From Sinohyriopsis cumingii (taxonomy: Eukaryota > Mollusca > Bivalvia > Unionida > Unionidae): DNA of 64,000 bases. The stretch spans positions 50,789,074 to 50,853,073 of the forward strand of contig CM068842.1 of assembly GCA_028554795.2 (NCBI GenBank), in the 5' to 3' direction. A program made the position numbers and the translations under genes. Shown piece by piece: positions 3,521 to 23,358 of this stretch (position 1 is its first letter; each line of letters opens with the position of its first letter). Under the pieces are notes generated by a model. The model saw nothing but the letters and a program-made list of their open reading frames with translations. It was not told the DNA's origin and searched no databases.

Positions 3521-3559
3521 ATCTCTTTTCGAGAAATATGGCTGGCCCTGAAAAGGGCC
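3521..3559 (-). terminator. histone-type 3'-end signal 1 (stem-loop plus downstream element), in left TIR
   Basis: On the minus strand, GGCCCTTTTCAGGGCC (3559-3544) forms a 6-bp stem with UUUC loop, preceded by AAA and followed by AGCCA. The purine-rich CGAAAAGAGAT (3531-3521) begins 12 nt after the stem, where U7 snRNA pairs in histone pre-mRNAs. It starts 21 nt after the stop of the 3581-4177 gene. Confidence 0.85.
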
Positions 3560-3580
3560 TTTCGCTTTCTTCTGCTTCTT

Positions 3581-4177
3581 CTATTTCCTCCATTTCCTCA
3601 TCCAGCCCCTAATCTTTCCCCAAATTCCTTTGTTCTTCCTCTTTTCTTTTTCAGGTAACCAGTCTGGGTGACCCATAGCCCTGAACTTCTCTTGTATCTT
3701 GATCCAATTTTGATTGACTTTGTCAAAGGCCTCTTTCTTCTTTATTGTTTCCTTATCCTGTTTTTCTTGACTCCATTTTTCTTTTATCTTTTTCACCTCT
3801 TCAGTCATCACTTGTTTCATTATTTCTTCTCCTTTTTTCAACCTGTTCAGTCCCCTCTTCATATATGACAACTCCGTCCAATACACTATATGTTCTAGGA
3901 AGCACCGGACTTGGATGACATAATCCAGTGCTTCCTTCAAACTCCCCACTCTGACATAAGGTGGGTCAATAAATCCTCTTGATTTGTTGACTTCATCTTC
4001 TATCATTCCTTCTATTATATGTCTGGCGGTTTTTATACGTTCGACTTGCCTGGTTACCAAGTATTCTTTATCTTCATACTCCCATTCCTTTTGTATCCTT
4101 TCTATAGCATATTCTGCATCTATTATCCAGAAATAGATATGCCTCAATTGATTAAATAAATCAGTCACTTGCGTCAT
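3581..4177 (-). CDS. outer gene A: coiled-coil protein with histone-type 3' end
   Basis: 198 codons from the ATG at 4177. The frame stays open up to 4333, but a TATA-like TATAAGAA (4235-4228) lies between, so the downstream ATG is preferred. The protein is charged and helical, with basic Lys/Glu-rich coiled coil over the last ~80 residues. The N-terminal helix region (motif around LRHIYFWIIDAEYAIERIQ and a later IIEGMIEDEVN) resembles the N-termini of the two neighbouring genes, which I read as tandem paralogues. Upstream lie two copies of the GCGCGGACGTGA module. Function unknown; position, small size and separate promoter suggest an early or regulatory gene. No homologue recognised. Confidence 0.75.
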   Translation of the reverse strand: MTQVTDLFNQLRHIYFWIIDAEYAIERIQKEWEYEDKEYLVTRQVERIKTARHIIEGMIEDEVNKSRGFIDPPYVRVGSLKEALDYVIQVRCFLEHIVYWTELSYMKRGLNRLKKGEEIMKQVMTEEVKKIKEKWSQEKQDKETIKKKEAFDKVNQNWIKIQEKFRAMGHPDWLPEKEKRKNKGIWGKIRGWMRKWRK

Positions 4178-4227
4178 CTTGTTTAGATTATTCTTTGTAG
4201 AATGGTTTGAACGACGAATACTGTGGG

Positions 4228-4338
4228 TTCTTATACGAAAAGCGCGGACGTGATGGAAAACATCCCTCAATACATAAAAATTGATCTTACCTAGATCATG
4301 ACCAAAACAACGCGCGGACGTGAAGGAAAACATCCCCC
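4228..4338 (-). promoter_or_regulatory. promoter of outer gene A
   Basis: Minus-strand order: distal module copy (4338-4312), a spacer with palindromic GATCTTACCTAGATC-like core, proximal copy (4267-4242), then TATAAGAA (4235-4228), about 50 nt before the ATG. The module GCGCGGACGTGAAGGAAAAC is repeated before the next two genes. Confidence 0.7.
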
Positions 4339-4419
4339 ACTTTTCTCATTTCATATAATAAAACCCAAACTATACTCTCCACATACGCTAAGAAACAATA
4401 AAAAAACCCATAATCTACT

Positions 4420-4590
4420 ATTCACACAAACTTACGCAAGTGCTTACAAACACAAACACACAAACACATACACTCACACTATAAAAAAAGAGTTAGTGTT
4501 TATATTCACACTACTCTACCTACACACATTGGCAAATTGATGGTTATTTCTTTTCTAGAGTATTGGGTAGCCCTGAAAAGGGCTGTTTTT
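4420..4590. repeat. segmental direct repeat, copy 1 (partner 5264-5440)
   Basis: Two near-identical blocks share the stretch with CTTACAAACACAAACACACA, GAGTTAGTGTTTATATTCAC and the stem-loop region. With the repeated promoter modules, this shows that the A, B, C gene units arose by tandem duplication of roughly 0.85-kb units. Confidence 0.85.
4546..4584 (-). terminator. histone-type 3'-end signal 2
   Basis: Minus strand: AGCCCTTTTCAGGGCT (4584-4569), UUUC loop, preceded by AAAC and followed by the canonical ACCCA, then CTAGAAAAGAAAT (4558-4546) as the purine-rich downstream element. It lies 30 nt after the stop of the gene at 4615. Confidence 0.88.
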
Positions 4591-4614
4591 TTTTTGAACT
4601 TCATGGACACCTGG

Positions 4615-4968
4615 TTAATGGTGGCACCTTCCAGGCCTGGCGCCACATACACATCTTGTCCCCCAGTTACTTTTTACCTTTTGGGGGGAGAGAGCAGAGG
4701 CAGGATATGTGGCTTCAGAATCCCAATTTTCGCTCTCTGGGATTCTGAAATTTCTTGTTCTTCTCTCCTTTTCCTCTTCCTCTTCTTTGTTTCTTCTCTT
4801 CTCCTCCTCTTCTTTGTATTTTCTCTCCTCCTCTTCTTTATTTCTTCTTTCCTCCTCCTCTCTCATCCTTCCGTCTTCCACAATGGCTTCCGCGGCCAGT
4901 TCATTCAACAGGCGCCTGGCATATTCCAGATGCACATGAAGTTCCAGTTTCGCCAGTCTCGTGTTCAT
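4615..4968 (-). CDS. outer gene B: Glu/Arg-rich coiled-coil protein with histone-type 3' end
   Basis: 117 codons. The N-terminus (LAKLELHVHLEYARRLL) is clearly related to gene C (LAKLNEAYVNLHRVRHSL). The middle (about residues 35-72) is an almost uninterrupted Glu/Arg/Lys single helix or coiled coil. The C-terminus contains a CVCGARPGRC Cys cluster. TATAAAT at 5026-5020 lies about 50 nt upstream of the ATG, leaving a short 5' leader. The function is unknown. The short coding region, TATA box and histone-type 3' end mimic the architecture of replication-dependent histone genes. Confidence 0.75.
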   Translation of the reverse strand: MNTRLAKLELHVHLEYARRLLNELAAEAIVEDGRMREEEERRNKEEEERKYKEEEEKRRNKEEEEEKERRTRNFRIPESENWDSEATYPASALSPQKVKSNWGTRCVCGARPGRCHH

Positions 4969-5019
4969 TTTTGGTGTTGATCAATCAACAAGGGTAGCTA
5001 GACTGCCCAGCGAGTTTCA

Positions 5020-5129
5020 ATTTATAGTGAAAGCGCGGACGTGAAGGAAAACATCCCCCTAAAAACATAAAATTGATCTTACCTAGATCATGACCAAAAG
5101 AAACAACGCGCGGACCTAAAAGAAACACT
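5020..5129 (-). promoter_or_regulatory. promoter of outer gene B
   Basis: TATAAAT (5026-5020) preceded by module GCGCGGACGTGAAGGAAAAC plus CATCCCCC (5059-5033), the GATCTTACCTAGATC palindromic spacer and a partial second module copy (5129-5108). The arrangement is the same as before gene A. Confidence 0.75.
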
Positions 5130-5263
5130 CACTCACTTTTTATGCTACCCATCACTATTTTAAAATTTTTTCATAAATCACTTCAATAGACTATCCACAT
5201 ACCCAAAGCAATCCAATCTAACCCCAAATCTAAACCTCAAACACCAAAAAAGACATCATTTTA

Positions 5264-5440
5264 ATCTACTATCCATACCAACATACTTTAGCACTTACAA
5301 ACACAAACACACAAACACATACCCTCACATTTTTAAAAAAAGAGTTAGTGTTTATATTCACACTACTCTACCTACACACATTGGCAAATTAATCGTTATT
5401 TCTTTTCTAGAGTATTGGGTAGCCCTGAAAAGGGCTGTTT
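5264..5440. repeat. segmental direct repeat, copy 2 (partner 4420-4590)
   Basis: Near-identical to 4420-4590 through the stem-loop and its flanks; see the partner entry. Confidence 0.85.
5398..5436 (-). terminator. histone-type 3'-end signal 3
   Basis: Minus strand: AGCCCTTTTCAGGGCT (5436-5421) followed by ACCCA and CTAGAAAAGAAAT (5410-5398); 28 nt after the stop of the gene at 5465. Confidence 0.88.
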
Positions 5441-5464
5441 CTTTGTTTGCCTTGGCAATCTTTT

Positions 5465-5824
5465 TTAGTTTCTAAGAATGCGATGTCCTCTGAGGATAGA
5501 CTTTCTGGCGATAGGTCTGCTTCTTCGGAAAGAGAAGTAGAACTCTTTGGTGTCGATACGGCAATCTACAAAGCCTCTGTCAGGTTCAGGTTGCTGCTGC
5601 TGTTGCTGTTGTTGCTGCTGTTGTTGCTGTCTCTGAAGTCTGTACTTCTCTGTCCATTCTTCTTTCTCCCTGTTCATTTCTTCTCTGAAGAGCTCTTCTA
5701 TCAGGTCTTCAGTGACTTTTAGCATTCTCACATTCTCTATTTCTTCTGGCTTCGGTATCAGACTGTGTCTGACCCTATGCAAATTCACGTAGGCTTCGTT
5801 GAGCTTAGCTAGTTTGGAGCACAT
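5465..5824 (-). CDS. outer gene C: coiled-coil, polyGln protein with histone-type 3' end
   Basis: 119 codons from the ATG at 5824. The open frame extends to 5944 but passes through the promoter module, so the downstream ATG is preferred. The N-terminus is paralogous to genes A and B. A helical Glu/Arg segment (motif LIEELFREEMNREKEEW) precedes a run of about 13 Gln, followed by a short tail. A weak TATA-like TTTAAGAA (5884-5877) and one GCGCGGACGTGA module (5917-5891) lie upstream. Role unknown; probably regulatory by position. Confidence 0.75.
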   Translation of the reverse strand: MCSKLAKLNEAYVNLHRVRHSLIPKPEEIENVRMLKVTEDLIEELFREEMNREKEEWTEKYRLQRQQQQQQQQQQQQQPEPDRGFVDCRIDTKEFYFSFRRSRPIARKSILRGHRILRN

Positions 5825-5876: not shown

Positions 5877-5917
5877 TTCTTAAAGCCAAAGCGCGGACGT
5901 GAAGGAAAACATCCCCC
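5877..5917 (-). promoter_or_regulatory. promoter of outer gene C
   Basis: Single copy of module GCGCGGACGTGAAGGAAAAC (5917-5891, minus orientation) followed by a weak TATA-like element at 5884-5877. Unlike genes A and B there is no second distal module. Confidence 0.6.
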
Positions 5918-6044
5918 ACACGGTTTTCGAGCCGCAACGTTCAATGAGTGTCATGAGAGGGATAGTAAGAAATGAAAGAGCATCAATCCAACATTCTTAT
6001 AGTTAAACAAACCACAAAGGCATTTTTTTCAAAACACAACATTT

Positions 6045-6050
6045 TTTATT
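6045..6050 (-). terminator. poly(A) signal AATAAA for the capsid block
   Basis: AATAAA on the minus strand about 90 nt after the protease stop. It is the only minus-strand AATAAA I noticed between here and 14476, so transcripts of the 6.1-14.4 kb block may be 3' coterminal here. Confidence 0.6.
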
Positions 6051-6140: not shown

Positions 6141-6737
6141 CTACTTTAAACAGGGCTGACAACGTTGTGAATGAAATTGTGATTTCCACTGTTGGAAATC
6201 ATTAGGCCATTGATGGACACTACGTTTCCTAGCTTGAGACAAAAGATAAGCATAATGGTCACAAAACCATCGATCTACTTTCGCATCGTTTCTAGAAGAA
6301 GAACGAGGATCAAAATGAGTCACTAAATGTTCTAAGGAATAGCCCAGGCTGCGATGATGCAGAAAATACACACAGTACTGTCCACACACCAAGGAATCTG
6401 TGCCTTGTAATGTCACATTATTGAATCGGGTGGTCTGAGCATTTCTTCTCATAAAGTCGATGATATCGTCTTCCAAAGGTGGCAATCCGTACGAATCGAA
6501 ATATTCCACACATCCTTCTTGAGGAAAGTAGACGGCTACCCAGTGGGTTCCTGGGAGATGACTGTCGTCCGTGTTGATCACGTAAGCTTGATGGTCTTTA
6601 GGTTTGCGATGAGGGAGTTCATCTTTAGCACAGACGACAGGATTCCAAGAAGCCGTATACGAACTGTGGTTCAAAAGGTAATAAAGTTCCCAGGTATCCA
6701 TTGTTTTGTGTGGTTTTTTCTTCTTCACAGGTAACAA
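6141..6737 (-). CDS. PRO: adenovirus-type (Ulp1-like) maturation cysteine protease
   Basis: 198 codons; an ATG 12 codons further in (6701) is an alternative start. The catalytic set is visible: His65 in GTHWVA, Asp81 in EYFDSYG, Gln111 and Cys118 in the segment QGTDSLVCG, matching the His-acid-Gln-Cys order and spacing of the adenain/Ulp1 family. In adenoviruses and Polintons this enzyme cleaves capsid and core precursors during virion maturation. The length is typical for the family. It is the most promoter-distal gene of the capsid block, and its first ATG overlaps the upstream gene by 13 bp. Nothing in the active site looks damaged. Confidence 0.93.
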   Translation of the reverse strand: MLPVKKKKPHKTMDTWELYYLLNHSSYTASWNPVVCAKDELPHRKPKDHQAYVINTDDSHLPGTHWVAVYFPQEGCVEYFDSYGLPPLEDDIIDFMRRNAQTTRFNNVTLQGTDSLVCGQYCVYFLHHRSLGYSLEHLVTHFDPRSSSRNDAKVDRWFCDHYAYLLSQARKRSVHQWPNDFQQWKSQFHSQRCQPCLK

Positions 6738-7231: not shown

Positions 7232-7236
7232 GGCTT

Positions 7237-8565
7237 CTAGTAATCTAGAATGACTTCTCTCAAACTGTTGATTTCTATGGTATTATCGAATTCTGCATAC
7301 AGGATGACGTTCACCGTTACATCAGGGTCTCGGTTTGCAAACTGAATTTCCACACGAATCTGACCGGATTTTATAGGGTGGAAATGTCCCTCGTCGCTGC
7401 CTTGGTCAGGAGTGAAATCGAAAGCCCACAAAACATAGACTCCTACATAATCGTCGTACGTAATACCGTGACTGGTGTTGGTTCCTAACTGTCCCGTGGC
7501 TTCGTACAGGGACAAGTACGATCTCAAGTAATTCTTCTTGGTAAAGTCAGGTTCGAAAGGTCGGGTACACAAGGTCTTGCCATCGCGACTGACTTCGATC
7601 TTGGACACGCCAAAGTGTTGAAAGTAGAAAGGATTTTTACCCAAAGCTCCGTTGAAGGCTTCATTCTCGACGATACCAACGATCAAACGTTTGGGTAACT
7701 GTCCTTGGAACAAATGATCTTCGATCATGGATCGCTGTCCCTTGGGAATGGTGAAGGTTTTCACTTCCACGCGTCGTATGGGATACTTAGCGGTCGTTCT
7801 GCTCAATGTTTGACTGATGTCGTTACCCACTTTAGGTAACACTTCCACGCGTCGTACGTAGAGCCTGGCTTCCTCGATGACAGTTTTGCAAGCAGTAGTA
7901 CCTATCAAATGGAAAGTGGCACTGCTACGATTCAGTCTCAGGCGAACATTCACCCCGTTTAGCAAATATTTCTCTTGTAACCACATGTCCAAATGCAAAC
8001 GATCCATCAGTTCTAAACTCTGTTCATCTTTGATTCTGTTTCTTCGTTCTACAAATCCGTCATTGTTTTCTTTCTTTTCATCAGTTTCGAAATTTTTAAA
8101 CTTTTCAGCTTCGTCAACTTCCCATAGTACAGAGGCATTGAGATGAGTGTTCTTGGCGTCTATTTCGTACGTCAAGAGATTTTCCAGGTACGCTCGATAA
8201 GGGTAAGTATCCATGCTGCTGCTGACCAGTTTGTTGTTCAAGTACAAGTCCACTCCGCTAAACAAGGAATGCATGAAATTGTTGACGGGAGCTATTACCT
8301 CATCGCCATCTAGGGTCGAATTGTCCTCATCGACAACTTTGACTTTCAAGTACAAGTAACTGCTATTCAGATCGATGTAATCTTCGGGCTGTCCTTTGAT
8401 TTCAAACTCGATGGGAGCTGAGGCTGTCAATGAGGAGACGGGGTGAAATTCCACCCATTGGGATTCTTGCATGGTCATCATGGTGGGGGGCATGGCAAAC
8501 AGATCCAGTTCCGTCTTGGAACAAGCGCAAGATTCTCGGTGCATCATTTTTTTTCTGTGTTTCAA
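7237..8565 (-). CDS. MCP: major capsid protein (double jelly-roll, F54H12.2-like)
   Basis: 442 codons. The beta-rich sequence with the segments VNNFMHSLFSGVDLYLNN and YPYRAYLENLL is the recognisable N-terminal jelly-roll signature of the Polinton major capsid family, annotated in animal genomes as F54H12.2-like. The family folds as a double jelly roll, forms pseudo-hexagonal trimers and builds the icosahedral shell, as in adenovirus hexon and other bamfordviruses. Length is at the short end for the family. The start overlaps the stop of the pX-like gene by 4 bp, suggesting coupled translation. A TATAAATG at about 8708-8701 could drive it separately. The frame is intact. Confidence 0.9.
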   Translation of the reverse strand: MKHRKKMMHRESCACSKTELDLFAMPPTMMTMQESQWVEFHPVSSLTASAPIEFEIKGQPEDYIDLNSSYLYLKVKVVDEDNSTLDGDEVIAPVNNFMHSLFSGVDLYLNNKLVSSSMDTYPYRAYLENLLTYEIDAKNTHLNASVLWEVDEAEKFKNFETDEKKENNDGFVERRNRIKDEQSLELMDRLHLDMWLQEKYLLNGVNVRLRLNRSSATFHLIGTTACKTVIEEARLYVRRVEVLPKVGNDISQTLSRTTAKYPIRRVEVKTFTIPKGQRSMIEDHLFQGQLPKRLIVGIVENEAFNGALGKNPFYFQHFGVSKIEVSRDGKTLCTRPFEPDFTKKNYLRSYLSLYEATGQLGTNTSHGITYDDYVGVYVLWAFDFTPDQGSDEGHFHPIKSGQIRVEIQFANRDPDVTVNVILYAEFDNTIEINSLREVILDY

Positions 8566-9925: not shown

Positions 9926-10347
9926 AATTCCAGAGTTCTGTGGCTGTCCGAGGGGTTACTGGACGTCAGAGGCGTGTCTCCGCCCAAAATGGGGTTCTGA
10001 TTGTGGTTGGAGTGGTGACTGCCACTGGCACTGGACACAAGGTTCCCGGGGTTCCCGTTCGAGGAGAATTTCAGGGAGGGATTGGGAAGCAGGTAACCGA
10101 TGCAACTGCTCAATAAAATGGTCCACAATTGTTTGTCTCCTTGTTGCAAACTCAAATTGGCGATGGCTGCCCCGATGACACAATACACCACGAAGATTTG
10201 GCAGAAAAAGACGATTTGCGTTTTAGGCACACGTTCTCCGCACCACATCCACAAGGGTTGTTTTTGTAAATCTTGCACAGAAGAACTAGGTGAAGGAGGA
10301 GTGGTCGACGTAGCTGCGTCTGCTGTGTGAAAGGGCATGCTGGTCAC
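9922..10347 (-). CDS. conserved Polinton membrane protein
   Basis: 141 codons. The N-terminus is Ser/Thr/Pro-rich. A clear transmembrane helix lies at about residues 44-66, a conserved loop and second hydrophobic stretch at about 74-87 (LWTILLSSCIGYLLPNP), then a Ser/Asn/Gly-rich tail. I associate the second motif with a small two-helix protein common in animal Polintons; its function is unknown to me, with an inner membrane or capsid-membrane role plausible. It overlaps the integrase stop region by 4 bp upstream and the penton ATG by 4 bp downstream. TATAAAAAG (10357-10349) sits only about 10 nt before the first ATG, so transcripts from it may start inside this gene. Confidence 0.8.
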   Translation of the reverse strand: MTSMPFHTADAATSTTPPSPSSSVQDLQKQPLWMWCGERVPKTQIVFFCQIFVVYCVIGAAIANLSLQQGDKQLWTILLSSCIGYLLPNPSLKFSSNGNPGNLVSSASGSHHSNHNQNPILGGDTPLTSSNPSDSHRTLEL

Positions 10348-11453
10348 TTCTTTTTATAGTCGATGACTTGCGAAGCGTCGATCCAAGAATCGAAACTGGG
10401 TGGATATCCTTTCCAACGTACTTTGACTTCTTTGACACGTCGTTTGCCCACTTTACGGGTGCTGCGTTCGAGAATGCTTTCGATGTCGTACACGTCGTCT
10501 TCTTTTTTGGTGACACGTTGTAACTCGGGCAAATAAAACGTTCCTTTGAGCACTTCTCCGTTCATGTCTTCCAATTTATAGACGGCAGGATGACGGCCAT
10601 GCACTCGTCCAGTGACGCGAAACAATTCGGTCGTCCAGTTAGGTAAGTAACCTTTGTCGAAAGTGCGTTTGGTTTTGCCAATGCGCACCCAATCTCCTAC
10701 GGCCAACTCTCCACTTTTCTTGGGGACAGCCCTCGTCGGGGACGTACCGAACAGACGCTTAAACACCAACACTTCGTTGTCGGGAGTCACGTCTTGCGGG
10801 GCACGTCCGATGCTTCGATGGTAAGATTGGTTGTACGCTTGCACCAGGTGCGGCAAGATGTCGATGTACTTCAGAGTGTGATGATGCGTAAAATATTTCC
10901 ACATGCGTTCTTTCAAAGTGCGTTGAAAACGTTCCACGATGCTGGCTTTGGTTTCGGGATTCTCGGTGGTAAAAAAATGAATGTCACGTTTCTTTAATTC
11001 TTTTTGGAAAGTTTGGTTCAGAAATTCGGTGCCTTTGTCCGTTTGCCATCGAAGAGGGTGACGACCGCTTTGTTTCAACACCCGTTGCAGGGCTCGCACT
11101 AACTCGCTGCTCGATTTGGAAGTCAAGGGCACGACCCAGGCAAATTTGGAAAAGACGTCGATGACACAAAACAAATATTTGTAGCCACGATTGTAGCTGG
11201 CCAAATGAGAGACATCGGCTAAATCGGCTTGCCATTGATGATCGATGCCTTCCACTCGGGTGCGCCTTCTGGCAAACTTGCGTCGAATGGGTTTGTGTAA
11301 AGTGTAGGTAGGTTGTTCTTGTAACCATCGTTGCACTTGAGGTAAACGGAGACTTTTCAGTCGAGTTTTAGCAGCACGATACAATTTTTGAACTCCTGCG
11401 TAACCTGCAGGATGGGAGGGATCGTAGTAAATGCTGGCTAAGACTTTTTCCAT
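10344..11453 (-). CDS. INT: retroviral-type DDE integrase with C-terminal chromodomain
   Basis: 369 codons. The N-terminal part precedes a catalytic rve core with Asp77 (WQADLAD), Asp139 (QTDKGTEF) and Glu174 (SIVERFQRT), giving DD(34)E spacing. An SH3-like region (VGDWVRIGK) is followed by a chromodomain at about residues 320-369 (YDIESILE ... VRWKGYPPSFDSWI) with conserved aromatic cage-type residues. It joins element ends to target DNA with a 6-bp stagger, consistent with the TATGTA duplication. The chromodomain may guide insertion to methylated-histone chromatin. The frame and catalytic residues are intact. Confidence 0.96.
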   Translation of the reverse strand: MEKVLASIYYDPSHPAGYAGVQKLYRAAKTRLKSLRLPQVQRWLQEQPTYTLHKPIRRKFARRRTRVEGIDHQWQADLADVSHLASYNRGYKYLFCVIDVFSKFAWVVPLTSKSSSELVRALQRVLKQSGRHPLRWQTDKGTEFLNQTFQKELKKRDIHFFTTENPETKASIVERFQRTLKERMWKYFTHHHTLKYIDILPHLVQAYNQSYHRSIGRAPQDVTPDNEVLVFKRLFGTSPTRAVPKKSGELAVGDWVRIGKTKRTFDKGYLPNWTTELFRVTGRVHGRHPAVYKLEDMNGEVLKGTFYLPELQRVTKKEDDVYDIESILERSTRKVGKRRVKEVKVRWKGYPPSFDSWIDASQVIDYKKK

Positions 11454-13661: not shown

Positions 13662-14405
13662 TTATGGGGAGTGAAATGAAGTCGAGGACGGAGACGTGTA
13701 GAGGACAGGCCCTCCGTCTTGGCACCAGTGGTGAAACAAGTGGGTACGAAATCGCAAATCCTCGGGGCTTGTTGGTTTCAAATCGACGAGTAAATAGGCG
13801 TGTGGCGTTTGAGTGGCATCGTCGTACGCCTGAGTCAGCCAAGGCGTTCCTAACTGTTTGGCTAAGACTTGCACTTGCGATTTATCTCGAGGGCTTTTAA
13901 ACAAGACCACGTAATGCGCATTGAGACAGATGGTGCGATGGACTTTACTTTGTTGAAACAAATTTTGGGTGATGTAAACGACACTGGCATTACGGTGATG
14001 CCCTTTGCGCGTGAACCACAGTTTAATTTCTTCTTCGTCTTCTCCTAACATGTCGTCGAAAATGACCAAATGGGTTTGACGGGAGTCAGAGACGATGCCG
14101 TCGTCTTCTTTAGGAATGCCTTCCACAAACAAGATGGAATCGCCTTGACTTTCTCGCAAGAGGTTGTACGCCGATTGCCACTCTTTGTAACACCACACGA
14201 TCCGTTGAGGTGGCCGATCGATCAAATGATGTTTATGTTCGATCAAACGTTTGACGAATTCGGTTTTGCCTGAACCGCTAGGTCCAGCAATGAGCATGTT
14301 AAAGGGATGGCGAAGATACAAAGCCTCCCAACTGGCACGATCTAAGTGTTCGTCGACGACTTTGACAGTAGAGGAATAGGGAGCAGAGACAGCAGAGGTA
14401 GCCAA
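13662..14405 (-). CDS. ATP: A32/FtsK-HerA-type genome packaging ATPase
   Basis: 247 codons. Walker A is GPSGSGKT at residues 41-48, Walker B LVIFDD at 113-118, followed by the sensor-like VVYITQNLFQ segment typical of A32-type packaging ATPases. It pumps genomic DNA into preformed capsids in Polintons, adintoviruses and nucleocytoviruses. The length is normal for the family. A TATATAAA at 14459-14452 lies about 47 nt upstream of the ATG, so it is probably transcribed from its own start. It begins the capsid block. Confidence 0.95.
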   Translation of the reverse strand: MATSAVSAPYSSTVKVVDEHLDRASWEALYLRHPFNMLIAGPSGSGKTEFVKRLIEHKHHLIDRPPQRIVWCYKEWQSAYNLLRESQGDSILFVEGIPKEDDGIVSDSRQTHLVIFDDMLGEDEEEIKLWFTRKGHHRNASVVYITQNLFQQSKVHRTICLNAHYVVLFKSPRDKSQVQVLAKQLGTPWLTQAYDDATQTPHAYLLVDLKPTSPEDLRFRTHLFHHWCQDGGPVLYTSPSSTSFHSP

Positions 14406-15004: not shown

Positions 15005-15207
15005 TGAGGTGGTAAGTACTGATCGTAAAGAGTCCACAAAGAATCGGCTGGTAAACGAAATCCCAGAAAACAAGTCACTAAGACACACACCACTTGTCGT
15101 CCCAAATTGAATGGATACAGTTCTTGTAATAATTGATGGTAATGATCCACGGTTTGAATATGGTCATTGAGTACCTTCCACGGAATCTGTTCAATGATAT
15201 GTGACAT
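14995..15207 (-). CDS. hypothetical small protein
   Basis: 70 codons from the ATG at 15207. TATAAAA at 15236-15230 puts a transcription start near 15208, favouring this ATG over the one at 15219. It contains a hydrophobic VVCVLVTCFLGF segment and Trp-containing tail. It overlaps both neighbours by short stretches. Not recognised. Confidence 0.5.
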   Translation of the reverse strand: MSHIIEQIPWKVLNDHIQTVDHYHQLLQELYPFNLGRQVVCVLVTCFLGFRLPADSLWTLYDQYLPPQWP

Positions 15208-15688
15208 AATCCGTGGCATGGCAACTTGATTTTATAGTGTCTTTGTTTCGGAAGCAATAAAGGTAATTTCTAACCAAACATGTTCGTTCTCCAGTAGGGA
15301 ATTTAAATGTTACATACTGTAACTGAAACGTCAGAGTTTGTCTAGATGTTTCGTCTTTTTCTAAGCAGATTCCATGTAACAAATGTTGGTAATCCTTTAA
15401 CTCGTTTTCCTCAATACGTTGCAGTAAGGGAATCTCGAAGTAACCAAAATTACGAACGTCTGGTCCATCATCATTCACAAACTGAAAGTGTTCAACAAGG
15501 TCTGACCACTGAAAAAATTTCTGACGAATCAGTCCTCTTATACCATTCAGGTACCAGTGGTTAAAGATCTGGTGACGTAACGGATGCAATTGTTCTTTAC
15601 GTTTCACTTGTATTTTTACCAGCTCTCGGTAAATCCTTTCTCTCAACTCCTCAGGCAAGCCCAAAATGTACTCTTGTAAAGTATCCAT
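15191..15688 (-). CDS. F-box-like protein 3 of a tandem trio
   Basis: 165 codons from the ATG at 15688, chosen because the product then aligns with its neighbour from residue 1. The N-terminal GLPEELRERIYREL (about residues 10-23) fits the start of an F-box helix (LPxEL..xI). The remainder is beta-rich and unrecognised (FNHWYLNGIRGLIRQKFFQW, then a Cys/Tyr segment). F-box proteins recruit Skp1-Cullin1 ubiquitin ligase, so redirecting host ubiquitination is plausible but only inferred. Coding overlaps the second trio member by about 38 bp. Confidence 0.65.
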   Translation of the reverse strand: MDTLQEYILGLPEELRERIYRELVKIQVKRKEQLHPLRHQIFNHWYLNGIRGLIRQKFFQWSDLVEHFQFVNDDGPDVRNFGYFEIPLLQRIEENELKDYQHLLHGICLEKDETSRQTLTFQLQYVTFKFPTGERTCLVRNYLYCFRNKDTIKSSCHATDYVTYH

Positions 15689-15923
15689 AGTTATATACAC
15701 TGTTTTTGGAATCGTTGGGTGGTGACCAATAGCCTCGTTTAACTTTGTGCCTAATGTAATATCCACTCATAATCAGTCTTCTTGTACTTTGGAACAGAGC
15801 ATAATTTAAAAACGGATGAATCACTTTGAGTTTGCGTTTCACTTGTATTTTGATCAGTTCTCGGTAAATGCGTTCTCTCAACTCCACAGGCAAAGCACGA
15901 ATGTTCTCTTGTAAAGTATTCAT
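15651..15923 (-). CDS. F-box-like protein 2 of a tandem trio
   Basis: 90 codons. The N-terminus (MNTLQENIRALPVELRERIY) is nearly the same as in protein 3, followed by a divergent basic and aromatic region. Its ATG overlaps the stop of protein 1 in an ATGA arrangement (15920-15923), suggesting reinitiation. It is shorter than its neighbours and may be a decaying duplicate. Confidence 0.6.
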   Translation of the reverse strand: MNTLQENIRALPVELRERIYRELIKIQVKRKLKVIHPFLNYALFQSTRRLIMSGYYIRHKVKRGYWSPPNDSKNSVYNYGYFTRVHFGLA

Positions 15924-16321
15924 GAATATGTCAGTCCGTACAATTCACAAAAGTAATCCACATAGTGAGTAATTTCTGACCACTGCCATTCAGGGTAACG
16001 TCCAAGAATGTCACTGAACTCTTTTGATGTAAACGGTCTAAAACGATATAATAGGATGAATGCACCCTTGACCCAAAGAAATCTAACACACTGGTTGACC
16101 TTTTTCACTTTCCTCTTATGAATTTCTCGACACAAAAGTTCTACAGTGACCCATTGAGATTTCACTCTGGCAAACCCCTGCCAAACTTCCTTGTAAATCT
16201 TCTCTTGCAGTTCTTTAGGTAATGATTCAATATCGTTTTTGAAATGAAGTTTAAATACTGGTCTCGGTGATGTCCAACATTTGACTCCTAGCCAATCTGG
16301 TTTCTTCTTCGTCAACGACAT
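15920..16321 (-). CDS. F-box-like protein 1 of a tandem trio
   Basis: 133 codons. The motif SLPKELQEKIYKEV (about residues 33-46) is equivalent to that of the two downstream paralogues, followed by a Trp/Tyr-rich domain (FLWVKGAFILLYRFRPFTSKEF). Three tandem, translationally overlapping copies point to local duplication under diversifying pressure. Lies downstream of the BIR gene in the same orientation. Confidence 0.6.
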   Translation of the reverse strand: MSLTKKKPDWLGVKCWTSPRPVFKLHFKNDIESLPKELQEKIYKEVWQGFARVKSQWVTVELLCREIHKRKVKKVNQCVRFLWVKGAFILLYRFRPFTSKEFSDILGRYPEWQWSEITHYVDYFCELYGLTYS

Positions 16322-16332: not shown

Positions 16333-16971
16333 TCAATGTTTCGGTCCCACTAAGGGTAAGTAATGACAATTCGGTGACCATCGAGCATGTTCAACGTAGG
16401 ACGAATCTTGCGGTTCCCAGTGGTGAAGTGACACACCGCAACTGAAGCACTTGACTTTATCTCCTTCGCCCAAAAAGAAAAATCCGGCTCTGGCTAATTC
16501 TTCGGGGGTCGGTCCTCCAAGATACTTAGGCCATTTTCCTTTGAACGATTGAAGACGATTTTCAAAGTCGCAGTATTCCGACAAACGCACAGGAAACGAA
16601 TATTCGTCTTTCACAGGTTCGTTTCGATGAGGGCTGGGTGACATGAACAGGAGTTTGCACAGGGCTGGATGACATCCGTAGGGGGGTAGACGTGAAGGTG
16701 AACATTCCCCTTTAAAACGAAACCCAGTAAAATGTCCAAGAGGACGAGCGGCATCGCTTTCGCATCCCTCAGGTTTGACACGCACAGCATCACTTTCCAT
16801 GACAGGGGTAGTGAGAACAAAGTTCCCATGATGCTTTACGCCATCGCTCAGGTCACAAGGTACAGCATCGTACCCATCGCAAGGCTCACAATCGCATTCC
16901 ACTTCCGAAGTCTCACACTTGAATTGTGCCTTTCTAAACAACTTGTTTCGTGTTTCTCTGAAAGTATTCAT
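16333..16971 (-). CDS. BIR-domain (IAP-like) protein
   Basis: 212 codons from the first ATG; Met110 (16644) is an alternative start giving a 103-residue, BIR-only product. The C-terminal half is one BIR domain: conserved Arg and Trp-Pro, LARAGFFFLGEGDKVKCFSC, then a His and final Cys (EHARWSPNCHYL) complete the CCHC zinc site. No RING or second BIR is present. BIR proteins bind caspases or IAP antagonists and baculoviruses use them to delay apoptosis; here that is inference. The N-terminal half is Cys/Gly-rich and unrecognised. TATATAAAAAGG at 17035-17024 lies about 55-65 nt upstream of the first ATG. Confidence 0.85.
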   Translation of the reverse strand: MNTFRETRNKLFRKAQFKCETSEVECDCEPCDGYDAVPCDLSDGVKHHGNFVLTTPVMESDAVRVKPEGCESDAARPLGHFTGFRFKGECSPSRLPPYGCHPALCKLLFMSPSPHRNEPVKDEYSFPVRLSEYCDFENRLQSFKGKWPKYLGGPTPEELARAGFFFLGEGDKVKCFSCGVSLHHWEPQDSSYVEHARWSPNCHYLPLVGPKH

Positions 16972-17016: not shown

Positions 17017-20000
17017 CTAGGGTTCCTTTTTATATACAGACCAATACCGACGTGTCCATAGGGTAAGGTGAAATGATTGGGAAGTCTGGTACACGATTTG
17101 ATAGACTTTTTCCAAGGGCCGACTGACGATGTGGTGAGTGGGTAAACTTACAATCTTGTTCGGTTGATAGGTGGTCACTTTAAAGTTTCCATCCTCTCCC
17201 GATTGCAAGGCTTCTTTCAATACCCCAAAGTTGACCACTCGACTGGTACGATAATTCAGAGTCAGTCCTTTCACTTTGCACGTCGTGTGCACTTCTCCTT
17301 GTTTGTCCCGGTATTTGTAGCCGTAATTTTTGGGACCGCCACTGACGAAACTTAGAATCTTGTCGTCGGGATGCTCGTCTGTCCAGGCTCCTAAACGGTC
17401 TCCTTCGATGTCAGGGTGATGTTGAATCGAGTGATGGATGTAAATGCAACTGTCCGTGTCAAAGTACAGGACGCGTTCCCCTAACAGTTCTAAAGCTTCG
17501 TACAATTTTAAGCGAGCATGGGCTGTCACGTAAGCCGCAATGATGACATTTCCAAAAGGGTCGTCTTGTACAAAGTTCAGATCTTCTTCGTAATTGACCA
17601 AGATCAAATCCTCTCGAACGACGTCCACGTGTTTCATGTATTTGGTTTTGTCGTGAATCATCTGGAAGTAGCGGGAAGGTTCTGTCAAATATTCCGTCTT
17701 GGGTAAACACGGTCGTTGTGCCATTTTACCCCACAAGCAATTTAACATCACTTTGGCAAACGATCGCCTGCCTTCGTTTTTCTCGATGTGGTCTAAAGTG
17801 ATGCCTTCTTGTTCCCGGTATTTCTCTTTGAATTTTATTTGGTCTTCGGGAGTGTGACACCAGGAAGGATAGCCGCTGGCTTCTTGCTTCAGTTTCAAAA
17901 ATGCATCCACGTAGTCAGCGAAAATGCCTTTCTGAATAGGGTCACCCTTGTGGTATTGTTGTGTCTTGGGAAAGTGGCAAATTTCGTACACTTCTAACAG
18001 TTGGTATCCCATGTCCAGAGCTTTGAACAATTCTACGCTGACCCAGGTTCCCGTCAAGGCACGTTCTTCCTGGGTGTGCTGACAAGGTTGGTCTTGGTTG
18101 CACGTTTCGGCACAAGTACGGCACAAGGGAAACATCAGTTTGCCTTGACAATGATGAGGTAAGACGGGATGGTATAGGTTCGTGGGAGGTAAAACTTTGC
18201 ACTTGATCAAGCCTTCGTATTGTCAAATGTTTTTCAGGTGGATGTGTTCCGTCAGCAATTGCGGGTGCCCTACAGGAAAGCGACAATATTTGCACACGTA
18301 GGGATACAGCGAACACACGTCCAAGTATTTGATTTCTTCTCCTTTCTCTTCGTCGGCTTGGTACAGCAAACAGGTGGCATTGGTCCTTCCTCCGTACAAA
18401 CTATCCCTCGGGTTCAGCGGGTCCATGAACTGGTAACTTTCCACGAGGCGTTTAAACTCGGGATCGGTTTTCATACGGTGATCGTACTCGTGTTCCCACA
18501 TTTCCACCACTTGGTATCCTTGCTGTTCCAACTTTAGGTGTCGCTGACAAGTGTCCTGGTACAGGTCTTCCATGGTCCGTTGCAAAAACTGATTTCTAGT
18601 GCCACGGTCAGGGTAACAGACGGGACATCCGTGAAATAAGCAACCGTTAAATTCGTACACGATCTTGGGGTTTTCTAAGTCCCAGCCATCGACTGAATAC
18701 GTTCCGATGGTCTTTTCGCCCCCTCCGTTGCGGGCATGCTGAATCCACTTGTCTTCCTTGTCGCACAAGTAATGTAACCAACGTAGGGCTTTGACCGAGT
18801 ATTGACGCTTGACAAAGTGGGTAGTTTGAGGGCTAATGACAGCCACGGTGTTTTCAGGCATGAATCGTTGTCGGTACACTAAGGAACACGCTTTGGCAAT
18901 GGTGCAAGCTTCTTTCAAAGGATCGACCCCTCCGTGTTCCATGAACAGTTCTCGAAATTTTCCACAGCAACGCCGTAAAATGTCCTCGTCGGAACGACAA
19001 TACTTTAGCATTTCTTCCTGAAAATCGAAAGGGTCCGAGGCGTGAGCCTGGTACCAAGCGTAGAAAGCTTCTCGTTGTTCGGTACGCATGTTGTCGGGGT
19101 CGTAATAGTGAGCCTCAGGTAAATGGGGTAGAACGGCATGTTGATTGGCTTCCGTATTGAAAAAGTGTGGAAAATAACCTTTAGCCATTTCTGTCATTCC
19201 AAACGTTTTAGGCATTCGACTCAAAGGCATGGCCAAGTAACTCATCGAATCCTTAAACTGCACTTGTCCCACTTGCATGAAAATGATTTTGGCTCCGTTC
19301 AAAGTGACTTTAGGACGTTCGGTGCCATGTTTTGTATAGTAGCTCAAAAGAAACTGTCCATCGTATCCGGAGAAATTGTGAGCCATCACCGTGGCATGAC
19401 GATGACAATCTCCGTAACGTTCGACGTCCTCTTGGCTCCACGTCTTGTCGATGGGGTCTAAAACCCATTGGGCAAAATCGGCTAACGTGTTCGGTCCCCG
19501 AAAGATTTTTTCACGCCCTCCAGGAATTTTGCTGCAGTGAGGGCAATAACTGAAGATAGGTTCTTGAATGCACTTCTCGCACGCTCGATGAGCCACGCAG
19601 AAATTAGGAATGTGAATGCCGGTCTCTTGCATGCATTCGAAATCGAAAAAGATGAAATTGCCTTTCTTCTTGTGACCGTCCTCTTTCTCTGGTGGGGGTT
19701 GGTATTTTTGCACGTAGCATTGGTGTTCCAAGTCCACGATGTGGTGACAAATGTGACATTTTTTCTTTCCTGAACATACGTGTGCCTTGGCATTATTGGT
19801 AAGTATGCCTTGTCCACACGTAGGGCACAATCTCAGGAGTTGACAAGCACATTTCTTCTGTGAACCTTGAGTTTTCAAATGCTGTTGGTAACAGGTAGGG
19901 CTGACAAACGTGCGCAGACAAGTTGAACAAGGCACTGGTTCTTCGCTCAGACAGGGTGGAGAGGCCAAACATCCTGAGCATTTCCATCCACAATGTTTGT

Positions 20001-21066
20001 GTTGCTCTCGATTATTATAACCATAGTCACATTTCTCACAGTAATATCTGTATCCCAGGAATCCGGTGATGCTGGTAATGGTATCGAAATGTTCATCGTG
20101 ATGATAGACATGAATGTATTTTCCGTCCTTAAAATGTTGGCCTCGAAACAACAGAGGCCCGCGCATTTCTTGAGGGTGCACTTTCAAGGTGTAGCGTGGA
20201 TCTAGGGCATCTTGCAATTTTTGCATCTCAGGAATGCCACAGGGTGTGTCTTTGGACAGGCCAGCTTGTTGCAACAGGAGTTCTGCTTCGTTTCGTTGTT
20301 TGGTTCGGTTCGATTTTCGAATGTTCTCCCAGGTTCTTTTCCATTCTACCGTGTCGTTCTTGTTGGCATAGGTTCGTCCCACCACGATGGCACGGGCTAA
20401 ACACATCTAGTCTTGAGGGTTGTTAATTCGGACGAGACTTGTTTTGGTGTTGCGAAGGTCGTCCACCAATAACATCTTTTTGCGTCCTGTCCCTTGAGGA
20501 AGAGATACGCGGGCCATTTTCAGTGTGGCTTTACCATCGATGATGTCAAACTGGTCATTAGATTGTTGTACGTGTTGAATCTTGTCCATGACTTTGGAAG
20601 GGGTTAGTTCTGCGGGTCTGCTAAACTCGATCCAAACAGGGAATTTCAAACCGTCGTGATCTATGGATAGTGTCAAGCGATCGTCTTCTTTGGGTTGACA
20701 TTGTCGCTTGAGTGCGGTGAGCAAAGAATCCCACATCTCGGTGATAAACCCTTCTGCTTTCTCCAATGGTACGTCGGCCTTGAAATCTTTAAACTTCACC
20801 GTGTAGGTGTAAGCCGTGGTTCTAAATTTTCTAGAGGAGCGCTTTTCCGTCTCTCGAATGGAATAGTATTTTTCAGGGTTGACTAAGGTTGGCGAACTTG
20901 GTTTAGAGGTTTCAAATTCTGGTTCACTCATGTCCTCTTCAAAATCACTGGCATGAATTTGTGCCAAGATTTTAGCTCTGGTACGAGGCGATAGATCACG
21001 TTTCTGCCTCTTACTTTCTTCTTCTTCTTCTTCTTCTTTCTTCTCGAATGAATAGGATCGTTTCAT
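17017..21066 (-). pseudogene. PolB: protein-primed-type family B DNA polymerase, interrupted by two in-frame stops
   Basis: One continuous frame of about 1,349 codons broken by TAG at 20407-20409 and TGA at 18223-18225. Segment 1 (21066-20407, 219 codons) matches the N-terminal domain usual in Polinton PolB. Segment 2 (20406-18223, 727 codons) has a Cys-rich region (123-230), ExoI DFE (D255, E257), ExoII NFSGYD, ExoIII YCRSDEDIL and polymerase motif A DVCSLYP. Segment 3 (18210-17017) has motif B (KVMLNCLWGKM) and motif C (YFDTDS). The enzyme replicates the linear genome, probably with protein priming. Each stop falls exactly between conserved stretches with no shift. TATAAATT (21120-21113) precedes the ATG. 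Segment 1 could instead be a separate small gene. Confidence 0.93.
17024..17035 (-). promoter_or_regulatory. TATA box of the BIR gene
   Basis: TATATAAAAAGG on the minus strand, overlapping the 3' end of PolB. Confidence 0.65.
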
Positions 21067-21148: not shown

Positions 21149-21200
21149 GTGCGTGTCTTGTCCTTTCACTATTCATTTCACTCTCAAGCCAAGCACAACG

Positions 21201-21668
21201 ATGGAAGACACTAACCAAATCGAACGTTTCGTCAGAGCTTTGCGAGGGGTCATTAGAAAATTCTCTTCAGACCAGCCGACGGACTATTCTCCTTCCTTTC
21301 GAGATAAAAGTCAAGATACTTATTATATCTGTCAGAAGAAAGGGCATTGGTCTTCAGAGTGTCCAGACCGTCAAAAAAGAACAAAAACAGGGGCTAAAAA
21401 AGACAAAAGTCAAGATACCTGTTATTATTGTAAAGAAAAAGGACATTGGTCTCCAGATTGCCCCAAAAAGAAACAAGAGGAGTCAGAAGAAAAGGATTCT
21501 TCAGAAGAAGAGAGGGATTCTTCGGGAGAAGAGAGGGATTCTTCAGAGGAAGAAGAGGAAGAAAGAAGACAATTCTACTTACAAGAGGCAAAGAAACAGG
21601 AGAAGAAAAGAAGAAGGGAAGAAAATGAGGAAAAGACGGTGAAGAAATTCAAAAAACAGAGAGACTAA
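21201..21668 (+). CDS. CCHC zinc-knuckle protein
   Basis: 155 codons from the ATG at 21201, about 53 nt after the TATA box; the frame is open from 21153 but that ATG is at the expected transcription start. The second zinc knuckle is canonical (C74-x2-C77-x4-H82-x4-C87 in CYYCKEKGHWSPDC). The first has the same spacing but Tyr41 in place of the first Cys. A Ser/Glu-rich stretch with DSSEEER-type repeats (likely casein kinase 2 sites) and a basic tail follow. CCHC knuckles bind single-stranded nucleic acid, as in retroviral Gag. It is the only inner plus-strand gene. Poly(A) signals ATTAAA (21701) and AATAAA (21754) follow. Confidence 0.8.
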   Translation: MEDTNQIERFVRALRGVIRKFSSDQPTDYSPSFRDKSQDTYYICQKKGHWSSECPDRQKRTKTGAKKDKSQDTCYYCKEKGHWSPDCPKKKQEESEEKDSSEEERDSSGEERDSSEEEEEERRQFYLQEAKKQEKKRRREENEEKTVKKFKKQRD

Positions 21669-21700
21669 ATAAGGAGATAGAAGAAGTTAATGAACTTTTT

Positions 21701-21759
21701 ATTAAAGTGTTGTGTTGTGAATTGTGAATTGGATTGTAAACAATGGATAAAAGAATAAA
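21701..21759 (+). terminator. poly(A) signals of the zinc-knuckle gene
   Basis: ATTAAA at 21701-21706 and AATAAA at 21754-21759 lie 30-90 nt after the stop. No histone-type stem-loop is present here, in contrast to the outer genes. Confidence 0.6.
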
Positions 21760-21898
21760 TTAATGATATAAGGTAAGTGTCTTTGAGTTTTGATTTTAAA
21801 ATAAGAACGTAAACTCATGCACTCATACACAGAAACGTACTATAAGGGTAAAATGGGTGGGTTTATTTTTTTTTTGAGTTATTGGCAATTGAAATTAT

Positions 21899-21937
21899 AT
21901 TTCTTTTCGAGAAATGTGGGTGGCCCTGAAAAGGGCC
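21899..21937 (-). terminator. histone-type 3'-end signal 4
   Basis: Minus strand: AAA, then GGCCCTTTTCAGGGCC (21937-21922), then ACCCA, then CGAAAAGAAAT (21909-21899). This is the closest of the five to the textbook histone signal. It lies 28 nt after the stop of the gene at 21966. Confidence 0.9.
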
Positions 21938-21965
21938 TTTTTTTCTTTATGGTGTAGGGGTGAGT

Positions 21966-22538
21966 TTAAGCAATCAACTTTAACTGCCTTAAGCCTTTGC
22001 CACGGCCAAGGCCTACTTCTGGACTGCGTAATGTTGATGATGATGATTGGGTTGAAATCACTAAGGGTGGTACGGTAGGCTTAGTCACAGGGTTGACGTG
22101 TTTAGCTCGGGAAGGTCGTATTCTCTTCGGTCGTAATAAAGAAGTCTGATACATTTGTTTCAGACTTCTTAACTCCGCTAAAATGTCCAACAGTACCGTG
22201 ACCGTTTGATTTTCACCCTCTTGTTTCTTTGCTGCTACTTCTTCTTGCTGTTGTTTTTTTTTTCTTAGCTCTTCTTCTTGCTGCTGTTGCTGTAGGAGAA
22301 AAGCTTGTTCCGCTTCCTTTTGTCGTTGTATAAATTTCTCCAATTCTTCTTTCTGTCTCTGTCTAAAATTCTCCACTTGCGGTAATGAAGAAGGTAACGC
22401 TGGTTCCGGAACAAATTCTTGCGAGGAGAGAAAATCCACAAAATCCCAATTCACCTCTTCTGAAAGTAAGTCCGGGTTCCCTTGGGCAGTCTCCCCTGTT
22501 GGTGCACCCCAATGGATCGTTTTCTGAATTTCCGTCAT
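21966..22538 (-). CDS. outer gene D: coiled-coil Gln/Glu-rich protein with histone-type 3' end
   Basis: 190 codons. An acidic N-terminus (NWDFVDFL around residues 30-37, resembling a short acidic activation motif) is followed by a long Gln/Glu/Lys coiled coil (about 55-105), a leucine-rich helix (VTVLLDILAELRSLKQMY) and a basic Ser/Thr tail. Its size and architecture resemble genes A-C without clear sequence similarity. It is driven by a TATA box and CRE and ends in a histone stem-loop. Function unknown; a transcriptional or scaffold role would fit but is a guess. Confidence 0.75.
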   Translation of the reverse strand: MTEIQKTIHWGAPTGETAQGNPDLLSEEVNWDFVDFLSSQEFVPEPALPSSLPQVENFRQRQKEELEKFIQRQKEAEQAFLLQQQQQEEELRKKKQQQEEVAAKKQEGENQTVTVLLDILAELRSLKQMYQTSLLRPKRIRPSRAKHVNPVTKPTVPPLVISTQSSSSTLRSPEVGLGRGKGLRQLKLIA

Positions 22539-22585
22539 GTTGAATCACTGTCGCATAGATTGACTGCACACAAGCGCTAGCGAAT

Positions 22586-22607
22586 CTATATAGACTACGT
22601 GACGTCA
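22586..22607 (-). promoter_or_regulatory. TATA box and CRE/ATF site of outer gene D
   Basis: CTATATAG (22593-22586) lies about 50 nt before the ATG. A perfect palindromic CRE, TGACGTCA (22600-22607), sits 6 bp further upstream. CRE sites bind CREB/ATF factors and are common in early promoters of adenoviruses. Confidence 0.75.
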
Positions 22608-22705
22608 CAGACTGCTCTCTTCAGATTGGATGCGGGCTGACTGAATTTTGTAACGCGTGTTCGGATTGGTGAATGAACTCAATCCGTTTCAATCCTACCT
22701 CTACC

Positions 22706-22713
22706 TATAAATA
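22706..22713 (+). promoter_or_regulatory. TATA box of outer gene E
   Basis: TATAAATA 52 nt upstream of the first ATG at 22758, diverging from the gene D promoter. Confidence 0.7.
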
Positions 22714-22757
22714 AGCGCAGTTCACTGCATTGATTCACCTGTTCTCATCGCTTCAAG

Positions 22758-22991
22758 ATGTGGACCGATGTGCAATCTTCTACGCTTGTGTCTTCCATGA
22801 TGTTCAGGACGGACATACTCATGTATGTCCGATCCAAGTGGACCGTTGTCCACAGGACAAACACCAGCCTGTGGATACGTGGGATCTACGTTGAAAGACA
22901 AGGATGCCTGAAAAGAGTGCTAATTTACGGGCCAACAGTGAGACGCAGCCTAAGGACAAGAAGAAGACCAATGCGGTGCCATTTATGTTAA
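22758..22991 (+). CDS. outer gene E: small protein of uncertain frame, histone-type 3' end
   Basis: 77 codons from the first ATG after the TATA box, product basic and without recognisable domain. A second frame over the same DNA (from about 22757 to 22895) reads a Cys/His-rich segment (CAIFYACVFHDVQDGHTHVC) but lacks an ATG. After a TGA it continues as a Lys-rich, hydrophilic stretch to a TAA just past 23001. That frame looks more protein-like, so the gene may carry an indel or be spliced or frameshifted. The transcription unit is better supported than either reading frame: TATA upstream, histone stem-loop 24 nt after the 22991 stop. Confidence 0.45.
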   Translation: MWTDVQSSTLVSSMMFRTDILMYVRSKWTVVHRTNTSLWIRGIYVERQGCLKRVLIYGPTVRRSLRTRRRPMRCHLC

Positions 22992-23012
22992 TGAATACAT
23001 TAACATAAACCC

Positions 23013-23358
23013 AAAGGCCCTTTTCAGGGCCCCCATATTTCTCGAAAAGAGATAGCCTTTCAATTGCCTACCCTTTTTTAAATTTAAATTTAAATTTAAA
23101 TTTAAATTTAAAAAACTTTTTTTAAAAAAAAAAAAAAAATCCCATATTCAATTCCCCTTGTCCCTAGACAAGCCCAAACTCTATTCCTCATGTTAATTTC
23201 CCTTGTCCCTAGACAAGCCCAAACTCTATGTTAAATTCCCATTGTCCCTAGAGTGGCCTACGATTTTTCTCCATGTTAAATTTCCATTGTCCCTAGAGTG
23301 GCCCAGGTTTTTTTTAATGCTTTGTCCCATTGTCCCTAGGGTGGCCCACTTCACTACT
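23013..23358 (-). repeat. right terminal inverted repeat
   Basis: Reverse complement of 3220-3562 with few differences, including the mirrored CTAGGGACAA iterons, homopolymer tract, (AAATTT)n tract and histone stem-loop. Confidence 0.95.
23016..23053 (+). terminator. histone-type 3'-end signal 5, in right TIR
   Basis: Plus strand: CCAAA, then GGCCCTTTTCAGGGCC (23016-23031), CCCCA, then CGAAAAGAGAT (23043-23053), 11 nt after the stem. It is the TIR counterpart of signal 1 and serves outward transcription of gene E. Confidence 0.87.

Follow-up and report, generated by a model that had tools for sequence, protein, structure and literature searches.

Five terminal genes of a Sinohyriopsis cumingii Polinton appear to end in the host's histone mRNA 3'-end signal

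The subject of this analysis is a 64,000-nt stretch of the genome of the bivalve Sinohyriopsis cumingii (GenBank assembly GCA_028554795.2, contig CM068842.1, positions 50,789,074 to 50,853,073; hereafter the window), in which terminal inverted repeats (TIRs) and a target-site duplication delimit a Polinton element at 3220-23358. The interval 3521..23053 given in an earlier note on this DNA is too narrow, since the TIRs and the 6-bp TATGTA duplication, which can be read from the sequence at 3214-3219 and 23359-23364, put the element at the wider coordinates. With DNA polymerase B (PolB; PF03175), an rve integrase (PF00665 and PF00385), TIRs and the 6-bp duplication the hallmarks of Polintons and adintoviruses are present, and the element is a 20.1-kb provirus of this type. 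At its two ends lie five short genes, here named E1 to E5, each of which ends in a hairpin (Table 1); the E1 hairpin coincides with the inner edge of the left TIR and the E5 hairpin with that of the right TIR.

All five of the 16-nt hairpins that the earlier note had described, with a 6-bp stem and a UUUC loop, were recovered at the positions and on the strands listed in Table 1, and no other perfect 6-bp stems with this loop were among those listed by a scan of the window; a wider loop class added AT-repeat stems and a few others. Each hairpin stands on the coding strand of its gene and closely follows the stop codon, at 21 nt for E1, 30 nt for E2, 28 nt for E3 and E4 and 24 nt for E5, just as had been claimed, and a purine-rich downstream element (HDE) starts 9-10 nt past each of them. 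The ACCCA said to flank the hairpins on their 3' side is exact at three of the five sites and is replaced by AGCCA at 3544 and CCCAT at 23016. These are not five independent events: two of the sites lie in the TIRs and two, the E2 and E3 ends (4569 and 5421), in a duplicated block of 114 nt that is 96% identical. In addition, a looser 68-nt cassette is common to the ends of E1-E4, with 69-94% identity to the reference copy, and all five sites may trace back to one ancestral end, whether captured or evolved, of which duplicates arose afterwards.

Table 1. Features of the Polinton element and its flanks (positions in the window; HDE, downstream element; R1, covariance model built from host histone ends; ORF, open reading frame)
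Feature	Position	Strand	Basis or remark
Target-site duplication TATGTA, left	3214..3219		same as 23359-23364
Left terminal inverted repeat	3220..3561		inverted repeat arms 3213-3270, 3264-3452, 3440-3561
E1 HDE CTCGAAAAGA	3524..3533	-	read from sequence; aligned with host HDEs
E1 hairpin GGCCCTTTTCAGGGCC	3544..3559	-	Histone3 32.8 bits; R1 45.0 bits
E1 gene, ORF of 250 aa as listed	3581..4333	-	no Pfam match
E2 HDE CTAGAAAAGA	4549..4558	-	identical to HDE of host H3, H4, H2B, H1
E2 hairpin AGCCCTTTTCAGGGCT	4569..4584	-	Histone3 31 bits; R1 57.0 bits
E2 gene, 117 aa	4615..4968	-	dN/dS among copies 0.20
E3 HDE CTAGAAAAGA	5401..5410	-	read from sequence
E3 hairpin AGCCCTTTTCAGGGCT	5421..5436	-	Histone3 29 bits; R1 55.5 bits
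E3 gene, 119 aa	5465..5824	-	dN/dS among copies 0.11; relatives in metagenomes
AATAAA poly(A) signal of protease gene	6045..6050	-	90 nt past stop in window; gene without hairpin
Adenain-like protease gene (weak)	6141..6701	-	PF00770 16.8 bits, under curated cut-off
Candidate major capsid protein	7237..8547	-	homology to bivalve F54H12.2-like proteins; no Pfam match
rve integrase with chromodomain	10344..11453	-	PF00665, PF00385
Packaging ATPase (weak)	13662..14297	-	PF04665 and PF01580, both under cut-off
DNA polymerase B, two open frames in window copy	17017..20406	-	PF03175 on both pieces
CCHC zinc-knuckle gene without hairpin	21201..21668	+	AATAAA at 21754
E4 HDE CTCGAAAAGA	21902..21911	-	read from sequence
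E4 hairpin GGCCCTTTTCAGGGCC	21922..21937	-	Histone3 43.4 bits, above gathering; R1 56.6 bits
E4 gene, 190 aa	21966..22538	-	relatives in public collections
E5 gene, 77 aa	22758..22991	+	open, 76-78 aa in 12/12 loci examined (one the window's own, two overlapping within one copy)
Right terminal inverted repeat	23013..23358		inverted repeat comparison
E5 hairpin GGCCCTTTTCAGGGCC	23016..23031	+	Histone3 32.2 bits; R1 42.6 bits
E5 HDE CTCGAAAAGA	23041..23050	+	read from sequence
Target-site duplication TATGTA, right	23359..23364		read from sequence

A covariance search of the kind that the earlier note had proposed as a check matches all five sites to the Rfam family of histone mRNA 3' ends (Histone3, RF00032), with E-values of 1.4e-9, 1.3e-5, 2.1e-5, 6.4e-5 and 3.4e-4 and no further match at E up to 10 in the window; one of the five (21897-21942, 43.4 bits) exceeds the gathering score of 34 bits. 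A second model, R1, was built from six host histone ends alone and picked out in the window precisely the five sites of the Polinton, at 57.0, 56.6, 55.5, 45.0 and 42.6 bits (E 3e-11 to 1.1e-7), the next best match standing at 15.1 bits (E 0.7). Because a model made from host ends finds just these five sites, we regard the Polinton signal as being of the host histone type. In the 2.90-Gb host genome the core histones form an 8.3-kb tandem unit in the order H3-H4-H2B-H2A-H1, and each of these genes ends in a hairpin 27-38 nt past the stop codon, which reads GGCCCT-UUUU/UUUC/UUUA-AGGGCC in the core histones and GGUCCU-UUUC-AGGACC in H1 and is followed by CTAGAAAAGA 10-11 nt past the hairpin in H3, H4, H2B and H1 and by CCCGAAAAGG at 11 nt in H2A. 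The Histone3 model gives these host ends 35.0-39.4 bits, barely over the cut-off that four of the Polinton sites miss. Moreover, a 16-mer identical to that of the Polinton occurs in host H2B and in a separate H2B-like array, and the spacing of hairpin and HDE, 9-10 nt in the Polinton, is 10-11 nt in the host core histone genes. The Polinton signal thus corresponds to the end of the host histone genes in all three respects, the hairpin, the spacing and the HDE, and the proposal that these are metazoan histone-type 3' processing signals is supported by the sequence tests, down to a downstream element of the host histone type.

In established accounts of histone 3' processing (among them PMC9756948 and PMC6303110), SLBP binds the hairpin, the U7 small nuclear ribonucleoprotein (snRNP) pairs with the HDE, and S-phase cleavage takes place between the two, without polyadenylation. 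We put at roughly 85% the probability that E1-E5 carry the host's replication-dependent histone 3'-end signal, such that their transcripts would most likely be cleaved between hairpin and HDE by the U7 snRNP and SLBP machinery and their RNAs would stop at the hairpin and lack polyadenylation.

The signal is present at very high copy number in the host. Counting both strands, the genome contains 34,230 exact GGCCCT hairpins, and the hairpin followed by CTNGAAAAGA 8-12 nt downstream gave 31,490 matches, with 0 matches for the reversed control of either pattern. A search with the E4 protein gave 27,728 first-look candidates, and together the 34,230 hairpins and 27,728 E4 candidates apparently imply thousands of copies and a very large Polinton expansion, so that related copies in the host genome must number in the thousands. 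The first eight hairpin loci sampled, which include cases of two ends of one copy, all belong to the same Polinton family, with long flanks about 71-91% identical. We therefore rejected the idea that the exact 16-mer marks mostly host histone genes, as 8 of 8 sampled loci are Polinton and 31,490 of the 34,230 hairpins have an HDE of the CTNG form. An odd-looking tandem array was resolved as the H2B-like array of the host mentioned above (C1:5072500-5086500), which stands apart from the main histone cluster, has a 1.85-kb unit and ends its gene in a hairpin of its own, followed by an HDE of divergent sequence, CTGTAAAAGA.

The related copies sampled do possess the hairpins, whose absence from such copies would have spoken against the claim of the earlier note. 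Twenty left ends, for which an intact E1 hairpin was the selection criterion and which all lie within the first 5.3 Mb of contig C1, were compared for E2 and E3, whose hairpins were not selected for: both are found in 19 copies and a single one in the remaining copy (39 in total), a set that required an HDE-like motif and that is returned unchanged by a scan without this requirement. Among these 39 hairpins 5 of 624 positions depart from the majority, and two of the five departures are a UUUA loop that host H2A uses as well. The median pairwise synonymous divergence (dS), window included, is 0.146 for E3 (17 sequences) and 0.635 for E2 (19 sequences), and the hairpin varies much less than synonymous sites in the sampled copies. 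The ratio of nonsynonymous to synonymous divergence (dN/dS) is 0.08 for E1 (11 sequences), 0.20 for E2 and 0.11 for E3, after a distance filter that removed 6 of 171 E2 pairs and 6 of 55 E1 pairs, and these three genes are under purifying selection. An open reading frame (ORF) of at least 70 aa ends 16-50 nt upstream of 52 of 60 hairpins, again with the window included, which is not so for the other 8, and a readable HDE is missing at 2 of the 20 E1 ends (L016 and L026). At the opposite end of the element, the E4 signal is present in 28 of 28 loci chosen by the E4 protein alone, the window's own among them; these come from the top (8 loci) and the bottom (20 loci) of a list of 150, at 94-100% protein identity. 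The E5 signal is present in all 8 loci examined among those selected by E4, and 143 of the 150 listed E4 frames are free of internal stops.

Pooling host and element matches at E up to 1e-4 yielded 69 distinct aligned signals, with the E1 site of L026 falling outside. Of the pair cells in this alignment 98.8% are paired. The outer pair is G-C in 39 of the 69 signals, A-U in 30 and broken in none, the second pair is G-C in 68, and the third changes from C-G to U-A in one signal, that of host H1. None of 500 shuffles reached the observed number of paired cells or the observed covariation score. The shuffle control is weak, as the sequences are related, and the structure had itself guided the alignment. 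At the level of sequence, the outer pair shows compensatory change.

Judging from the motifs past its stop codons, the element seems to run two classes of mRNA 3' end, a histone type and a poly(A) type, because at least the protease and CCHC genes bear AATAAA instead of a hairpin. The protease gene adjoins E3 in the leftward gene series, and its AATAAA lies 87-119 nt past the stop codon, with no hairpin, in 10 of 10 copies in which the gene end was found (20 loci examined); the CCHC gene has AATAAA at +85 in the window. In the window, AATAAA is missing from the 300 nt past E1, E2, E3 and E5. In the AATAAA downstream of its protease and CCHC genes the element is like DNA viruses whose mRNAs are polyadenylated in the ordinary way (an adenovirus-like pattern), but here a separate terminal gene set bears the histone signal.

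Several observations weigh against a histone-type end on these genes. Four of the five sites remain under the Rfam gathering score (29-32.8 bits against 34). The U7 small nuclear RNA (snRNA) was not found in the host, the best Rfam match being a sub-threshold and unconvincing 29.3 bits, and the SLBP domain PF15247 was unmatched in the host by a search that matched in no control genome either. The 20 left-end copies were selected by the E1 hairpin itself from the beginning of a single contig, dN/dS was limited to frames open for at least 95 aa, a restriction that biases the estimate towards intact copies, and protein identity among the E4 loci is nowhere below 94%, so that their agreement is weak evidence of constraint. 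Conservation around the E2 and E3 ends reaches to about +100 nt and may thus partly reflect neighbouring promoters. As regards covariation, the number of pairs with two-sided change was equalled by 10 of 500 shuffles and the number of pair types by 500 of 500. Finally, in the window copy an ATTAAA lies 199 nt past the stop codon of E3 and an AATAAA 98 nt past that of E4, and AATAAA or ATTAAA lies within about 100-140 nt past the hairpin in 5 of 23 E4 and 2 of 8 E5 loci listed. We believe that the non-detection of U7 and SLBP is a failure of the search, because the host histones bear the same signals.

The Rfam search for U7 scored 65 of 801,960 first-look candidates and gave three sub-threshold matches, the best of which (L012) was rejected since it reads like the 3' end of an intron. 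A pattern search for U7 matched at 31 places and its reversed control at 43; the two best-looking candidates proved to be the reverse strands of decayed Polinton E2/E3 ends, and convincing U7 features were seen in none of six further places read (eight in all). On contig C3 (152151411-152151711) a decayed sequence resembles, on its reverse strand, an H3/H4-type hairpin with a UUUU loop followed by CTAGAAAAGA; it could be either an old histone pseudogene or some other element.

What the element might gain from a histone-type end is a separate matter. Expression of the hairpin genes would track S phase, when SLBP is abundant, and outward transcripts would stop at the TIR edge; of these presumed benefits S-phase coupling is our first choice, and for E1 and E5 a stop at the inverted-repeat edge, in second place, also deserves to be taken seriously. 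It is solely their position and small size that suggest that E1-E5 may be early genes. One alternative accepts that the histone machinery is used and places the main gain in compact, poly(A)-free termination before the TIRs, which would avoid sense/antisense read-through and the resulting double-stranded RNA, rather than in S-phase timing. E1 and E5 run outward with hairpins that abut the inner repeat edges, as this account would have it, but it leaves the internal E2, E3 and E4 unexplained, and we hold it to be a possible yet somewhat doubtful explanation.

Accounts in which the hairpin is not a working mRNA end fare much worse. A DNA-level transposon element (a replication, terminal-repeat or packaging signal) that merely resembles a histone 3' end could account for the two hairpins at inner TIR edges and for the retention of the signal in sampled copies, but three of the sites lie inside the element, every one of the five is on the coding strand and comes 21-30 nt past a stop codon, and the HDE and its spacing match those of the host histone genes; we regard such an element as highly improbable. 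The block and the cassette shared among the E1-E4 ends would suit a passive relic, in which a histone 3' end was captured once, duplicated along with the genes and is now functionless. Against this stand the near-invariance of the hairpin in diverged copies, the two-sided change of the outer pair and the host-type HDE at 31,490 of 34,230 exact hairpins, and we give this account very little credence. Nor does it seem at all likely that the hairpin RNAs are decoys, sequestering SLBP or U7 and interfering with histone production in the host, a reading which the very high copy number would favour but which sits poorly with the open coding genes that precede 52 of 60 sampled signals.

Our preferred reading, that E1-E5 end in the host's histone signal, concerns a processing signal that is itself familiar but occurs in a new setting. 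As in the metazoan histone mRNA 3' end (RF00032), there is a 6-bp stem, a 4-nt U-rich loop, an A-rich 5' flank and an HDE about 10 nt downstream, the hairpin comes soon past the stop codon, and it matches that of the host histones; unlike that end, it is here found on the non-histone genes of a mobile element, and its outer pair is A-U in E2 and E3. The element shares with Polinton/Maverick (adintovirus) elements PolB, an rve integrase with a chromodomain, TIRs and a 6-bp target-site duplication, as well as an ATPase and a protease by weak matches and a protein homologous to bivalve F54H12.2-like proteins, whereas histone-type mRNA ends are undescribed for such elements in the portions of the open-access literature searched. 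Among the entries listed, that search gave no description of Polinton, adintovirus, viral or transposon mRNAs with histone-type ends; the passages of PMC11071296 that matched terms for such ends concern viral histone-like genes and not mRNA ends, and the terms do not occur in PMC11071308. In a viral contig collection, searches with PolB, with the capsid and with a capsid alignment yielded no relatives, and neither of two hairpin patterns matched. Five partial contaminant Polinton contigs from other hosts (L035-L039), with capsids 29-43% identical, have no Histone3 match and no R1 match over 16.1 bits (E 0.96); no TIRs were found in the two that were checked (L035 and L036), so these contigs are weak evidence on gene ends. 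Relatives of E4 (20 proteins) and E3 (9) occur in public collections, mostly in metagenomes, and relatives with 58-68% protein identity are among them.

The E genes have further features of their own. E1 likely starts at the internal Met of MTQVTDLF. A motif around CGCGGACGTGAAGGAAAACATCCCCC recurs upstream of E1, E2 and E3 (4231-4350, 5022-5140 and 5880-5929) and is probably a shared promoter element. The divergent intergenic region between E4 and E5 (22538-22758) contains, by eye, a TGACGTCA site, two CCAAT-type motifs and TATAAATA, which presumably recall a cell-cycle or histone-type promoter. The E4 protein combines an acidic/hydrophobic N-terminal motif, NWDFVDFLSSQEFVPEP, with a basic PKR(K/I)RPSRAK stretch, both of which are mostly kept in the metagenome relatives, and from these motifs it looks like a transcription regulator.

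Elsewhere in the element, we take the protein encoded at 7237..8547 to be the capsid protein; among 120 listed of 867 relatives, those bearing animal names are bivalve F54H12.2-like proteins, from Mercenaria, Crassostrea, Ostrea and Saccostrea. A gene with a BIR (inhibitor of apoptosis) domain lies within the Polinton at 16333-16971 (PF00653). Three adjacent ORFs at 15191-16321 have a common LP.EL.E.IY.E motif, two of them contain a 93-nt direct repeat, and together they look like a small duplicated family with no Pfam match.

Taken as a whole, we consider it quite probable that an animal Polinton lineage put a number of its own genes under the host histone mRNA pathway, with its genes split between histone-type and poly(A) ends and partly tied to host DNA synthesis. 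If so, metazoan protein-coding mRNAs besides those of histones would end in the SLBP hairpin, and the same ends at tens of thousands of mobile-element places would break the exclusivity of the signal. E1-E5 transcripts could be met in host studies of histone processing or of non-poly(A) RNA and would be missed by standard poly(A) RNA-seq. As natural non-histone substrates of SLBP and U7 they would allow the effects of the signal to be separated from those of histones, and they would offer a clue to the way in which a nuclear element resembling a DNA virus detects S phase.

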